DNA of 34,076 nucleotides from Marinifilum sp. D714 (GTDB taxonomy: Bacteria; Bacteroidota; Bacteroidia; Bacteroidales; Marinifilaceae), in NCBI RefSeq assembly GCF_030851345.1, contig NZ_JALPNU010000034.1, positions 1 through 34,076 on the forward strand. The letters run 5' to 3'. Position numbers and translations under genes: made by a program. Below the pieces are notes generated by a model, which saw only the letters and a program-made list of their open reading frames with translations, had not been told where the DNA came from and made no database searches. Of the stretch, positions 30,900 to 34,076 are shown piece by piece (positions within the stretch are counted from its first letter, which is position 1; each line of letters begins with the position of its first letter).

Positions 30900-31409
30900 T
30901 TATTTCCCCCATCTCTTTGGATTCATTCGAATGTATTCTTCAATTCTATCAAATTCTGATTGACTGCGAATTATTCTATCATGGAAGCGAGGCAACCAAT
31001 CAAATAAAGAATATCCATTCTGTCTGCACCATTTGGTCAATGCCGATTTATAGGATCGTATCACTATAGATAAACTACCCGGTTTGGGTGCTATGGACGA
31101 CATGTATTGGTTTTTGCTTGTGTCGTTGGGACGTTGCAGTGCAACGTCCTTACAATCATTCACAATACCTATTATACCATGTATATGATCGGGCATAATA
31201 ACAAATTCGCCCAATTCTACATGTTTATTGTATATGGCAATATTTTTCCAAAAGTTTTCAGCCTGTTTTCCTATGGCTGATAACTGCACTTTACCATCAA
31301 CAATGTTTCCAAAGAAAGCTTCTTTATCTTTGGTGCTGATGGTTATAAAATACCATCCCGGCTCCGAGTAATCATGATTTCGTTTGCGAATGGATTTGCG
31401 GTTTTTCAT
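30900..31409 (-). CDS. REP-associated tyrosine transposase (RAYT, TnpA_REP)
   Basis: The 169-aa protein is a Y1/HUH transposase. It has the HUH motif VIMPDHIHGII (H75, H77) and the catalytic Tyr about 159 in EEYIRMNPKRW. The N-terminal YFITISTKDKEAFFG is typical of the RAYT branch, which is domesticated, not flanked by IS ends, and cuts REP palindromes. Nine residues (about 87-95, KDVALQRPN) are encoded by a REP palindrome lying inside the gene in frame, between the HUH and Tyr motifs. REP copies also lie on both sides. Start is ATG at 31409. The protein looks intact and may still act on these repeats. Confidence 0.93.
   Translation of the reverse strand: MKNRKSIRKRNHDYSEPGWYFITISTKDKEAFFGNIVDGKVQLSAIGKQAENFWKNIAIYNKHVELGEFVIMPDHIHGIIGIVNDCKDVALQRPNDTSKNQYMSSIAPKPGSLSIVIRSYKSALTKWCRQNGYSLFDWLPRFHDRIIRSQSEFDRIEEYIRMNPKRWGK
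31125..31153 (+). repeat. REP palindrome, copy 2, inside the RAYT gene
   Basis: A 29-nt palindrome with a 13-bp near-perfect stem (GGGACGTTGC / GCAACGTCC). It is the same length and orientation as the flanking copies and keeps the GGGACGT...ACGTCCTTAC ends. It inserts nine codons into the transposase without breaking its frame. Confidence 0.88.
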
Positions 31410-31446
31410 TCCAATGGGATGTTGTGAATGTTTTGATGTATTTGGT

Positions 31447-31487
31447 GTAGGGACTGCCGTAGGGACGTAGCACTGCTACGTCCTTAC
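31447..31487 (+). repeat. REP palindrome, copy 3, with partial duplicate
   Basis: A 29-nt palindrome at 31459-31487 is preceded by a truncated copy of its first 8 bases (GTAGGGAC at 31447-31454), probably a relic of REP insertion into a REP. It lies 38 bp upstream of the RAYT start. Confidence 0.9.
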
Positions 31488-31603
31488 TCTACCTGTATAT
31501 TCGTTGGTTTAATCTTTTCGCTGTATTTTAAAAGTTTATTGTTTTTGTTACATTATCTTGTCGGGCGTCACCATCCTTAAGTTTTAACTTTTGTAGTGGG
31601 TAG

Positions 31604-31984
31604 TTATTTGTTAATTTCAGTAGGTTTAATTATTGGTTCATGTAATGAAAACACTGAAACACAATAATCGATTCCTTCAATAAGAAATTCTCTTAATTCA
31701 AACATTTCATCTGAGATTAATGAACGGGACTTTTCCTGATCTAACCACCCGCCTTCAGTTATTTCGAGAATCCAGTTGTCAGTTAAGGTCTTATAATTCC
31801 AATAGTCCATCATATCTCTTTCGTGTATACATTTAAAACCAAAGGGATTCTCAAAACGGATTAAATATTCATCTGCTTTATCTGCAGAGTATTTTATATC
31901 TAAATTATCAAGGTCATAATTAATTGCAAGAATTTCAGGAGTGATATACTTCTGAATAATTGTATGAAGTACTTTTGCTTTCAA
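31604..31984 (-). CDS. Hypothetical small protein
   Basis: A 126-aa acidic, soluble protein that I do not recognise. It begins with TTG at 31984; no ATG or clear ribosome binding site is available near there, so the start is uncertain. Visible features are an aromatic, charged middle (FENPFGFKCIHERDMMDYW and GGWLDQE) and a helical C-terminal part, but no signal peptide or membrane span. The shape is reminiscent of small immunity-like proteins, though no toxin gene is adjacent, so no function is assigned. It is divergent from the DUF6261-like gene, with the 41-bp hairpin array between them. Confidence 0.6.
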   Translation of the reverse strand: MKAKVLHTIIQKYITPEILAINYDLDNLDIKYSADKADEYLIRFENPFGFKCIHERDMMDYWNYKTLTDNWILEITEGGWLDQEKSRSLISDEMFELREFLIEGIDYCVSVFSLHEPIIKPTEINK

Positions 31985-32145
31985 TTTGTTCCGTTTTTTT
32001 AGTTCAGTTTAATTACCCACTTCTTATTTGTGTATTGTATCAATCTTTAAAATTGACTTCTTGAATTTATAAAACAATAATTGCTAAACAAAATAAACAA
32101 ATGGTAATCTTATTGTAAGGTTCAAAATCATATTAGGCATTTCTC
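31985..32145. other. Intergenic region left of the array
   Basis: AT-rich leader of the unknown gene on the minus strand. No gene or clear promoter is seen. Confidence 0.4.
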
Positions 32146-32555
32146 AAAAAAGTATTTCCTGAATTGGTTCAGATGCTCATTTTCCCAAAAAAGTACCTCC
32201 TCAACTGGCAGAGGAGCTCGTTTTTCCAAAAAAGTACTTCCTCAATTGGCTGAGGAGCTCATTTTCCCAAAAAAGTATCTCCTCAATTGGTTGAGGAGCT
32301 TGTTTTCTCAAAAAAGTACCTCCTGAATTGGTTGAGGAGCTTGTTTTCTCAAAAAAGTACCTCCTCAATTGGTTGAGGAGCTTGTTTTCTCAAAAAAGTA
32401 CCTCCTCAATTGGCTGAGGATCTCATTTTCCTCAAAAAGCACCTCCTCAATTGGCTGAGGAGCTCGTTTTCTCAAAAAAGTACTTCCTCAATTGGTTGAG
32501 GAACTCATCTTGCAAAAAAACAATTTCTTCAATGAGGTGAAGAGCTTGTTGTCTC
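32146..32555. repeat. Ten tandem 41-bp hairpin units
   Basis: Ten units start at 32146, 32187, 32228, 32269, 32310, 32351, 32392, 32433, 32474 and 32515, exactly 41 bp apart without any indel; a fragment of an eleventh begins at 32556. Each unit reads AAAAAAGTA, then a palindrome with arms CTCCTCAA and TTGAGGAG around TTGG, then AGCTYRTTTTCYC. The outer units 1 and 10 are the most diverged, but their stems stay paired through compensatory changes (positions 7-16 in unit 1, 2-21 in unit 9, 5-18 in unit 10, counted from the base after GTA). The whole unit repeats, so it is not a CRISPR. The period is not a multiple of 3 and stops occur in all frames, so it is non-coding. Confidence 0.95.
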
Positions 32556-32843
32556 AAAAGCTTATTTCTTCGTTTTCTTTTAGCAAAGGAATGATTCAAA
32601 ATTCGGTAGATTCTATTTTGTGAACTTGTAATTGTATTTTACGATAGGTAAGAGTGATGATGTTTTTAAGTAAATTAAATTTAGAGGTGTGAAATTATGA
32701 GAGTTTGTATTACTCCTTATATATAATAGGAATAGGTGCTTCGGTAAAAAATGTTAAAAAAGTTTTATTGCTTTACAAAATAAATTAAATTTATAATGGT
32801 TTTAATAATAATGCTGTTGGTTCACATCATAAAAAAATAGAAT
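32556..32843. other. Intergenic leader of the DUF6261-like gene
   Basis: AT-rich, no gene. A TTGCTT / TATAAT pair with an 18-bp spacer (32768-32797) lies 46 bp before the ATG. It resembles a sigma70-type promoter, but Bacteroidota use a different consensus, so support is weak. Confidence 0.35.
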
Positions 32844-33587
32844 ATGATAGAACAAATGAATTTTTCAAAGCTGCACTTAAATGAGTTTTTAAGTTACTGC
32901 GGCGAAATATCAACTTATCTAAAATCGATCGATAAGGAAGGATTACAAATTGTATCTGCTATTGATCAGTTTGCAGCCAGGTACGAGGTGGCTGTTGAGG
33001 TGTCGAATCGTACTCGATCCAGTAAGTTTACGGATATGCTAAAAGCAAAAGACCATCGTCGTGATGAGTCTTACCTTGCATTTAGAAACTTGATTGAAGC
33101 ATGCTCTCATCGAAAGAATGCAACAACTGCTGAGAAAGCAGAAAGTCTGTTGAGAATAATCAGGTCTCATGGATGGTCGTTACAAATTGAGAGTAGGGCA
33201 GATCAATCGGCTAAAATGGCCAGTTTAATTAAAGAACTCAGCTCCGCTGAAAATACCAGTTTAATAGAGCAACTGTCTGCTACCGATTGGTATCAGGATA
33301 TGGTTGATGACAATGCAGAATATTTGAAACTGCAGGAAGATAAAACTGTTGCTGAATCATCGGAAACGGAGTATGACACTTTAGAGGTGTACAAGAATTT
33401 AAGAGTGAGTTGTGAGCAACTTTTCGAGGCTATTGAGGTGTTGAATCGCATAGCTCCTAACGAAAAGTACGATCAGATGGAAGCTTTCATTAACGATTGT
33501 ACACAGCGCTATCAAACCATTGTGAAAACACGCACTACCAAAAACGAAAACGCTAAAGAAGAACAAACCCAGGAACAGGAGGCATAA
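32844..33587 (+). CDS. DUF6261-like protein
   Basis: A 247-aa soluble, mostly alpha-helical protein resembling the DUF6261 family, a group of Bacteroidota proteins of unknown function. Features in order are an N-terminal NFSKLHLNEFLSYCGEI segment, a central KAKDHRRDESYLAFRNLIEACS helix that matches the family's most conserved part (about 69-90), a coiled-coil-prone second half (EVYKNLRVSCEQLFEAI), and a Gln/Glu/Lys-rich tail (NAKEEQTQEQEA). There is no signal peptide or membrane span. It is preceded by the hairpin array and followed by a structured 3' region and a terminator. Confidence 0.7.
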   Translation: MIEQMNFSKLHLNEFLSYCGEISTYLKSIDKEGLQIVSAIDQFAARYEVAVEVSNRTRSSKFTDMLKAKDHRRDESYLAFRNLIEACSHRKNATTAEKAESLLRIIRSHGWSLQIESRADQSAKMASLIKELSSAENTSLIEQLSATDWYQDMVDDNAEYLKLQEDKTVAESSETEYDTLEVYKNLRVSCEQLFEAIEVLNRIAPNEKYDQMEAFINDCTQRYQTIVKTRTTKNENAKEEQTQEQEA

Positions 33588-33901: not shown

Positions 33902-33974
33902 TGATCCCTCTGGGGTTCGAACCCAGGACCCCAACATTAAAAGTGTTGTGCTCTACCAGCTGAGCTAAGGAATC
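33902..33974 (-). tRNA. tRNA-Lys(UUU), copy 2
   Basis: The same 73-nt cloverleaf as copy 1, with anticodon UUU and no encoded CCA. It is the last tRNA of a tandem cluster read from the right, followed by the terminator at 33857-33888. Confidence 0.97.
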
Positions 33975-34011
33975 ATCCTGATTTTTTATGAAAGACTTTG
34001 GTTGTCTTTAG

Positions 34012-34076
34012 TGATCCCTCTGGGGTTCGAACCCAGGACCCCAACATTAAAAGTGTTGTGCTCTACCAGCTGAGCT
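34012..34076 (-). tRNA. tRNA-Lys(UUU), copy 3, cut by the window end
   Basis: The 3' 65 nt of a third identical tRNA-Lys gene; its 5' end lies about 8 nt beyond the window. A 37-bp spacer separates it from copy 2. More copies may follow. Confidence 0.93.

Follow-up and report, generated by a model that had tools for sequence, protein, structure and literature searches.

What does a tandem array of palindromic units do in front of a gene of the DUF6261 family? The question is raised by a stretch of 34,076 nucleotides from Marinifilum sp. D714 (contig NZ_JALPNU010000034.1; hereafter the window), in which ten units of 41 bp precede such a gene. A survey of DUF6261 genes showed that most of those sampled have an upstream array of their own, with a unit that is almost always 41 or 42 bp long, and hence that gene and array recur as a module. 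With a probability of about 0.4, we consider that gene and array make up a two-part module, of which the array is the cis component and in which the DUF6261 protein would recognise the units of the array as duplex DNA. The features of the locus are listed below (columns are those of the unit alignment).

32146 to 32555, plus strand: tandem array of ten 41-bp units, the cis array of the DUF6261 gene (Tandem Repeats Finder (TRF) and unit alignment; all ten units are matched by R1, a covariance model built partly from window units)
32156 to 32175, plus strand: dyad of unit 1 (columns 11-30), a 20-bp element recurring every 41 bp to 32525-32544
32556 to 32843, plus strand: spacer of 288 bp between array and gene
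32772 to 32799, plus strand: conserved promoter-like stretch TTTACAAAATAAATTAAATTTATAATGG of putative function, alignable in paralogs with unrelated arrays
32844 to 33587, plus strand: DUF6261 gene, 247 aa, predicted to be all-helical in a low-confidence model

Most sampled DUF6261 genes have an upstream array

The units of the window array start at 32146 to 32515 with a spacing of 41 bp throughout (n=10) and zero indels, as a preliminary description of this DNA had stated, and TRF reports a period of 41 with 9.0 copies and 87% matches at 32140-32506, as well as the multiples 82 and 123 reaching 32559; the tenth unit is clearly diverged. Each unit is ordered as an A6 tract, a four-base segment, the stem CTCCTSAA/TTSAGGAG around TTGG (columns 11-18 paired with 23-30), four bases and a T4 tract, and the unit alignment confirmed the palindrome flanked by A6 and T4 that had been described. 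Entire units repeat and there are no spacer columns, so that the array is indeed not CRISPR (clustered regularly interspaced short palindromic repeats); a coding repeat, also denied earlier, was ruled out because 41 is not divisible by three (42-bp arrays can be open in frame), and a known RNA family because the Rfam matches above threshold in the window are tRNAs only. The gene placed 3' of the array as DUF6261-like matches the PF19775 profile with 75.9 bits for a cut-off of 27 (E 4e-21), and all 23 of the aligned DUF6261 members match this Pfam family. Over 420 bp from the array end, the identity is 90.7% in M. flexuosum and 91.0% in M. breve.

The survey comprised 108 loci from 26 genomes, i.e., 101 of the 132 matches, all three loci of genome G099 and four further loci; the 31 matches outside it belong to G331 (10), G421 (9), G340 (6), G306 (3) and elsewhere (3). 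Once L207, whose upstream is too short, and L234 were excluded, 106 upstreams were tested by scanning lags of 20-100 against 40 dinucleotide shuffles, a z of at least 6 defining a clear array. As controls we used 108 DUF6261 downstreams and 270 upstreams of other open reading frames (ORFs), taken within the genus and, among genomes of the family (not order genomes), at the loci corresponding to sites C and D, which are defined below. A clear array was found in 80 of the 106 DUF6261 upstreams, a share that is probably somewhat high, and the best lag was 40-43 or 81-86 in all 80; the only one of the 270 control upstreams to reach this threshold is that of the M. flexuosum ortholog of the window gene. 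Scores above all 40 shuffles were obtained for 85 of the 106, with a best lag of 40-43 in 65 and of 81-86 in 18, and among the 26 upstreams with z below 6 the top lag was 40-43 in 13 (about 3 expected). The median array measures 279 bp and the median distance from array end to start codon is 131 bp. The link between array and DUF6261 gene, proposed from a single locus, is thus more general than that locus (80/106 versus 1/270). The proposal that the window unit itself recurs upstream of DUF6261 genes was not borne out, as only one of the twelve DUF6261 genes of the window's genome carries it: of the other 11, eight have a clear array of a different unit and three (L016, L020 and L022) fall below z 6. 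In a repeat scan, several paralogs likewise proved to have a different tandem array upstream, in most cases with a 41-42-bp unit, and more were seen by eye, in other families too; some genomes have at least 18 DUF6261 copies. Repeats of lag 41 and 43 were also observed downstream of the DUF6261 genes of L231 and L249, the former having no clear upstream array.

In these arrays the period is kept and the sequence is not. The dominant period in the 80 clear arrays is 41 (39 arrays), 42 (37), 43 (2) or 40 (1), one being unclear; as lags 40-43 and 81-85 served to define the array borders, the lag test on the 106 upstreams is the unbiased measure. When the 76 arrays with a period of 41 or 42 are placed on the protein tree, at least 18 state changes are required, of which 13 are forced by supported branches, and the two states are more clustered than by chance (2 of 500 shuffles as low). 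Four helical turns at 10.4 bp per turn correspond to about 41.5 bp. The suggestion of a constraint near four turns is supported by the 41-42-bp period across unrelated arrays, from which we infer selection on approximately four helical turns. A neutral inherited length would hardly shift by one base repeatedly within 40-43, and the period therefore favours a ruler at the DNA level, of which it is the strongest hint; an RNA-measuring protein could also fix the length. By contrast with the period, only 6 of 3160 array pairs are similar, and in all six the protein identity is 44% or more. Between the window gene and paralog L018, the proteins are 68% identical and an identity of 74% extends over 93 of the last 110 bp and takes in the promoter-like stretch, whereas the arrays are not similar; the array thus changes more rapidly than the flank beside it. 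Arrays show no enrichment of TAnnTTTG promoter boxes, with 9 in 23498 bp compared with 16 in 20797 bp upstream of them and 7 in 11583 bp of array-to-gene spacers.

The structure model of the window DUF6261 protein, made from three near-identical sequences, is all-helical with a predicted local distance difference test score (pLDDT) of 56.6. Weak matches of the family (PHROGs down to E 2e-4, PADLOC 0.02, PDB 0.006) were scattered over single members and set aside. A phage or plasmid origin was rejected, tblastn giving no match in phages or in plasmids (one DUF6261 protein each), and two DUF6261 proteins had no relatives in viral contigs. A conserved partner gene was rejected as well: the commonest neighbour is a RAYT-like gene, present at 6 of 108 loci by protein and 7 of 108 by tblastn.

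Arrays of the same unit away from the gene

Eight matches to the window unit were found in its own genome and resolve into arrays at six sites, two matches being the opposite strand of the same arrays.

Site A, window: cis array of the DUF6261 gene
Site B, contig C17: array of the window unit
Site C, contig C9: array of the window unit
Site D, contig C61 near 174k: one unit in the window's genome
Site E, contig C15: adjoining infB
Site F, contig C61 near 254k: close to the contig end

Outside these six sites, the covariance model detected no copy of the unit in this genome up to E 1. It matches 4 of 57 genomes, namely the window's genome and three others of the five of the genus, with zero matches in the 52 non-genus genomes. 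A strict unit pattern run on a collection of 84,980 species, in which the window's own record is possibly absent, returned 14 stretches, all from M. flexuosum, M. fragile and M. breve. The flanks identify sites A-D as orthologous sites in the different species, and the number of units varies: in the window's genome, M. flexuosum and M. breve respectively, there are 10, 10 and 10 units at site A (at least 3 in the broken M. fragile contig), 6, 2 and 6 at site B, 6, 6 and 13 at site C (5 in M. fragile and 1 in genome G002 of the genus), and 1, 8 and 7 at site D; sites B and D of M. fragile are split across contigs. Several contigs of G002 and M. fragile end or start inside such arrays (L278, at the end of G002:C60; L275, at the start of G002:C77; L097, L098, L099, L101 and L102), so that the assemblies under-count unit numbers. 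Successive units of the window family are spaced by 41 bp in 95 of 100 cases. Edge units differ from the array consensus at 9.0 positions and interior units at 3.3 (26 and 73 units), and recent duplications are visible at site C of M. breve. Beside its single unit, site C of G002 has a degenerate one whose stem is by eye still complementary, and genome G004 retains a half-unit remnant; inspection of outgroup genera by eye showed no array within the 420 or 330 bases that follow the two site C and D genes.

The window's genome, M. flexuosum and M. breve have both the gene and multi-unit arrays at several sites. For the gene, G002 has no match at E<=1e-60 and the best match in G004 is 51% identical. 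M. fragile is an exception: arrays are present at four sites, but a search for the ortholog found none, the best match being at 55% and the site A contig breaking off inside the array. The parallel between gene and multi-unit arrays across these genomes is thin and is consistent with a protein that maintains the arrays.

Arrays in trans are not peculiar to the window unit, as they were found for all three unit types examined in the genus (window, L018 and L023). In the five genus genomes, where 21-base matches and the contig-start array L275 were not counted, the L018 type occurs in M. flexuosum as a cis array and at three further sites, and at one site in M. fragile, and the L023 type occupies gene-less sites in M. 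flexuosum, G002 and M. fragile. No DUF6261 gene is present in the flanks fetched around the trans arrays, including the five extra sites of the window unit (about 1.5 kb each for the L018 and L023 types). By ORF calls, the 11 distinct trans sites lie between convergent genes (6), between codirectional genes (4) or at a contig end (1); divergent genes flank none of them. The arrays of sites C and D stand by eye between terminator-like hairpins belonging to both neighbours; read-through from these convergent genes is therefore unlikely, and the idea that all arrays are terminators was rejected on the same ground. The edge unit of site B starts at the stop codon in four species, resembles by eye the gene's own terminator and fits the shape of an intrinsic terminator, in which a T run comes directly after a GC stem; interior units have four bases between the stem and the T run. 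Edge units of the L018-type trans arrays L269 and L264 form AATAAGCTCT...AGAGCTTATT hairpins at the ends of neighbouring genes, terminator-like by eye.

Other observations concern the neighbourhood. The DNA left of the site A array (approximately 30900-32145; L093, L051 and L099) differs between species, with a RAYT-like gene, a 446-aa protein without family match or a 1217-aa YobI-like NTPase as left neighbour, and the right side is conserved where present; the left side may possibly be an insertion hotspot. At the end of the window (33902-34076, minus strand), tandem tRNA genes have a period of ~110 bp, and ~4.7 copies of a tRNA unit of ~110 bp lie beside the same DUF6261 gene in M. flexuosum (L093:4683-5207). 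In the M. fragile assembly, mnmA (L162, L163, G003:C21) matches in two frames. Near 241k of contig C61 of the window's genome, a tandem repeat of period 71 has ~4.7 copies (L106:45-374).

Dyads, stem pairing and alternative explanations

A recurrent dyad, with all six of six arm pairs and repeated one period away, is present in 27 of the 80 cis arrays, compared with 2.2 on average and 4 at most in column-permuted controls (n=20), and the hairpin score of the unit consensus is 5.9 versus 4.1 when shuffled. Of the two alternatives offered earlier, selection on a folded RNA or on a dyad-symmetric site, dyad symmetry is therefore the one supported; dyads are enriched and not universal at the stringency used. 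Covariation as a proof of RNA folding is weak. The stem changes cited are all present (G16-C25 in unit 1, G.G in unit 5, T11-A30 in unit 9 and T14-A27 in unit 10), but the C-G/G-C swap is not a compensation confined to individual units: among 105 distinct units, pair 16-25 is G-C in 47, C-G in 46 and other in 12, and both states of this pair co-occur in 13 of 21 array records. Units with G.G are present and expanded in tandem, five being adjacent at site C of M. breve, which indicates that the unpaired state is tolerated. Pair 16-25 is the top column pair by corrected mutual information, followed by two non-pairing ones (10-31 and 8-31); by within-array linkage it ranks sixth and pair 14-27 seventeenth, non-pairing columns ranking higher. 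When the 3' letters were shuffled within arrays, a Watson-Crick excess was left for 16-25 (99 vs 75.7), 14-27 (99 vs 91.4) and 4-37 (101 vs 95.8), and none for the remaining 9 of the 12 pairs. Only 3 of 12 pairs thus exceed the permutation, and non-pairing columns covary as strongly; covariation was rejected as a proof because the high pair counts shrink in this way. The stem is maintained to a degree, and much of the covariation is linkage of unit types.

The reading that the array works as RNA, in analogy with type III toxin-antitoxin systems, i.e., that it is transcribed and that DUF6261 binds or processes unit-length repeats, is in our estimation rather unlikely. The layout, repeats of locus-specific sequence upstream of one small gene, is like that of ToxI, of which ~3-5.6 repeats are described in five E. 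coli clusters (PMC8860590), some arrays lie near the start codon, and the folds are stable, better on the minus strand: compared with dinucleotide shuffles, z is -3.1 (plus) and -5.9 (minus) for the whole window array, -2.5 (plus) and -3.5 (minus) for unit 32351-32391, and -1.2 (plus) for unit 32392-32432. Mismatches at the loop-closing pair 18-23 of the window family are biased (33 A.C vs 3 G.T) and would be G.U on a minus-strand RNA. However, G.T and A.C are equal over the seven other stem pairs, 11-17/24-30 (30 vs 35), nearly equal in the outer helix of the window family (14 vs 10), and without clear bias on the gene strand of 26 cis arrays (45 vs 37). The period kept across unrelated sequences and the position of the site C and D arrays between terminator-like hairpins also speak against RNA, as does the lack of any ToxN, CptN or TenpN relative, at the sequence level, in the Pfam families listed, PADLOC (8 proteins) and PDB sequences.

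It is unlikely that the arrays are elements akin to repetitive extragenic palindromes (REP), in which DUF6261 or a nearby Y1 transposase would handle single-stranded hairpins and spread the units, gene control being secondary. A gene with an adjacent cluster of units and copies elsewhere is the pattern of REPIN-RAYT (PMC3116915), most REPs lie, as the trans arrays do, between convergent or codirectional genes (PMC3733652), and a RAYT-like gene is present in the fetched flanks of 7 of the 108 loci and at 30900-31409 in the window, just outside locus L021. Against this, 101 of the 108 loci have no RAYT match in these flanks, no Y1/HuH transposase figures among the 25 of 53 Pfam families listed for DUF6261, and the guide tetranucleotide GTAG/GTGG is not conserved at the hairpin foot of the window unit type, where the four bases 5' of the stems are GTAC, GTAT, GCAC and CAAT; at sites C and D, GAAG predominates. 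The sequence of the palindromes next to the RAYT-like gene of the window also differs from that of the array unit. With neither a cognate Y1 transposase among the families listed nor the guide tetranucleotide in this unit type, the earlier statement that the array is not REP is supported at the sequence level. The RAYT-like gene itself (minus strand) scores 48 bits with NF047646, below the cut-off of 80, and the palindromes GGGACGTWGCANTGCWACGTCC lie at 31128-31149, inside its coding frame, and at 31462-31483, just 5' of it; for tnpAREP genes of subclass 2.4, which is abundant in Cyanobacteria and Bacteroidetes, REPs inserted within the gene have been reported (PMC6006769).

That the array is a passive tandem repeat, grown by unequal recombination with an inherited period in tolerated intergenic space, is improbable. 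The more diverged edge units, the variable unit number at orthologous sites, the duplications in M. breve and the clustering of the 41/42 states on the tree are what it would predict, but the association with DUF6261 and the many 41/42 changes that stay in range are not; the passive reading is hard to hold for cis arrays and may hold for single trans arrays. An RNA-guided array of the TIGR-Tas (tandem interspaced guide RNA) stem-loop type is most improbable, as tandem stem-loop arrays do lie near the Tas gene in some Tas clades (PMC12045711) but the two variable spacers of 8-12 nt per TIGR unit are lacking here (a variable run of at least 8 columns in 1 of 43 arrays, L183, of mixed unit length; mean of 3.9 columns with a majority of at most 50%) and no Nop domain was matched in PDB sequences or the 25 of 53 Pfam families listed, the fold model being poor.

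A candidate protein-repeat module and known systems

We therefore return to the reading in which DUF6261 and its upstream array form a two-part module. The DUF6261 protein would bind duplex DNA at the dyads of its own array; with units four turns apart, the binding sites would lie on one face of the DNA, where the protein, once bound, could form oligomers along the array and regulate its gene from a position upstream of the promoter. Paralogs would each be paired privately with one array. Daughter arrays found at the 3' ends of genes would have arisen by spreading and would titrate the protein, with occasional reuse as terminator hairpins. DNA binding and autoregulation are favoured by the fixed phase and by the location of the cis array, which lies upstream of the promoter-like stretch; the trans sites suggest spread or titration. 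The multi-site operator proposed earlier remains the leading reading for the cis array and does not explain the arrays at gene 3' ends.

Several observations weigh against this module. No known DNA-binding domain was found for DUF6261 in PHROGs, PADLOC, PDB or the Pfam families listed. A strong consensus hairpin (p<=0.05) is present in only 27 of the 80 arrays and only 3 of the 21 even-centred dyads are continuous through the centre without a loop, so that a plain dimer operator is no universal fit. None of the trans sites is divergent, an orientation pattern that an operator does not explain, and in the window's genome the L018 and L023 types occur as cis arrays only. No clear array was found for 26 of the 106 DUF6261 genes, and G331 and G421, to which 19 of the 31 matches outside the survey belong, have one in 4 of 10 tested upstreams, which is why the overall share is probably somewhat high. 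Among the controls, 21 of 270 upstreams pass all 40 shuffles (4 at lags 40-43 or 81-86), as do 11 of 108 DUF6261 downstreams (3 at these lags). The 10th percentile of the array-to-start distance is 39.5 bp, and arrays ending this close to the start codon could be transcribed leaders. The bias at pair 18-23 and the better minus-strand folding would fit a minus-strand RNA.

In its widest form, which we regard as doubtful, the module would represent an undescribed class of paired protein and repeat in Bacteroidia, with orthogonal, fast re-diversifying pairs, a four-turn ruler (a filament or looped complex on one DNA face) and a protein that maintains or seeds trans arrays. The link between DUF6261 and arrays is apparently undescribed: the one paper found to mention DUF6261 does so in a table row, preprints and most subscription papers being outside the search. 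With this link, a family of uncharacterised function acquires a well-defined partner in the private array, whose location is predictable, and one protein with one DNA makes function directly testable. A period near 41-42 bp under complete change of sequence is an unusual natural record of a structural ruler. If the pairs are orthogonal, they would be a source of many independent protein-repeat pairs, whose fast co-evolution would be comparable to that of RAYT-REP or toxin-antitoxin systems.

How does this module compare with known repeats? The bacterial interspersed mosaic elements BIME-2 of enterobacteria also consist of palindromes in tandem, lie at gene 3' ends and vary in copy number, but are not known to have a private protein gene per unit type. 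The minisatellites known as mycobacterial interspersed repetitive units or variable-number tandem repeats (MIRU/VNTR) resemble the arrays in being intergenic, tandem and variable in copy number at orthologous sites, but are not known to have a cognate gene or a common period. As judged from the DNA and protein sequences, CRISPR, TIGR, ToxIN and RAYT/REP each fail in a defining feature. CRISPR differs by its unique spacers between repeats. TIGR-Tas has tandem stem-loop units beside a protein gene, with a unit sequence that varies between loci, whereas DUF6261 arrays have no spacer blocks, reside in bacterial genomes and accompany proteins that, where tried, gave no phage or plasmid match. Type III toxin-antitoxin systems (ToxIN/CptIN/TenpIN) share the upstream repeats, in contrast to the gene-less trans arrays and the absence of a clear gene-strand mismatch bias in the DUF6261 system. 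In REP/REPIN-RAYT (REPtron) systems too, a palindromic unit cluster stands beside one protein gene, copies occur elsewhere in the genome, mostly at gene 3' ends when extragenic, and gene and unit diverge together; the DUF6261 arrays are distinguished from these by being tandem, by their 41-42-bp period and by the small number of sites that they occupy.
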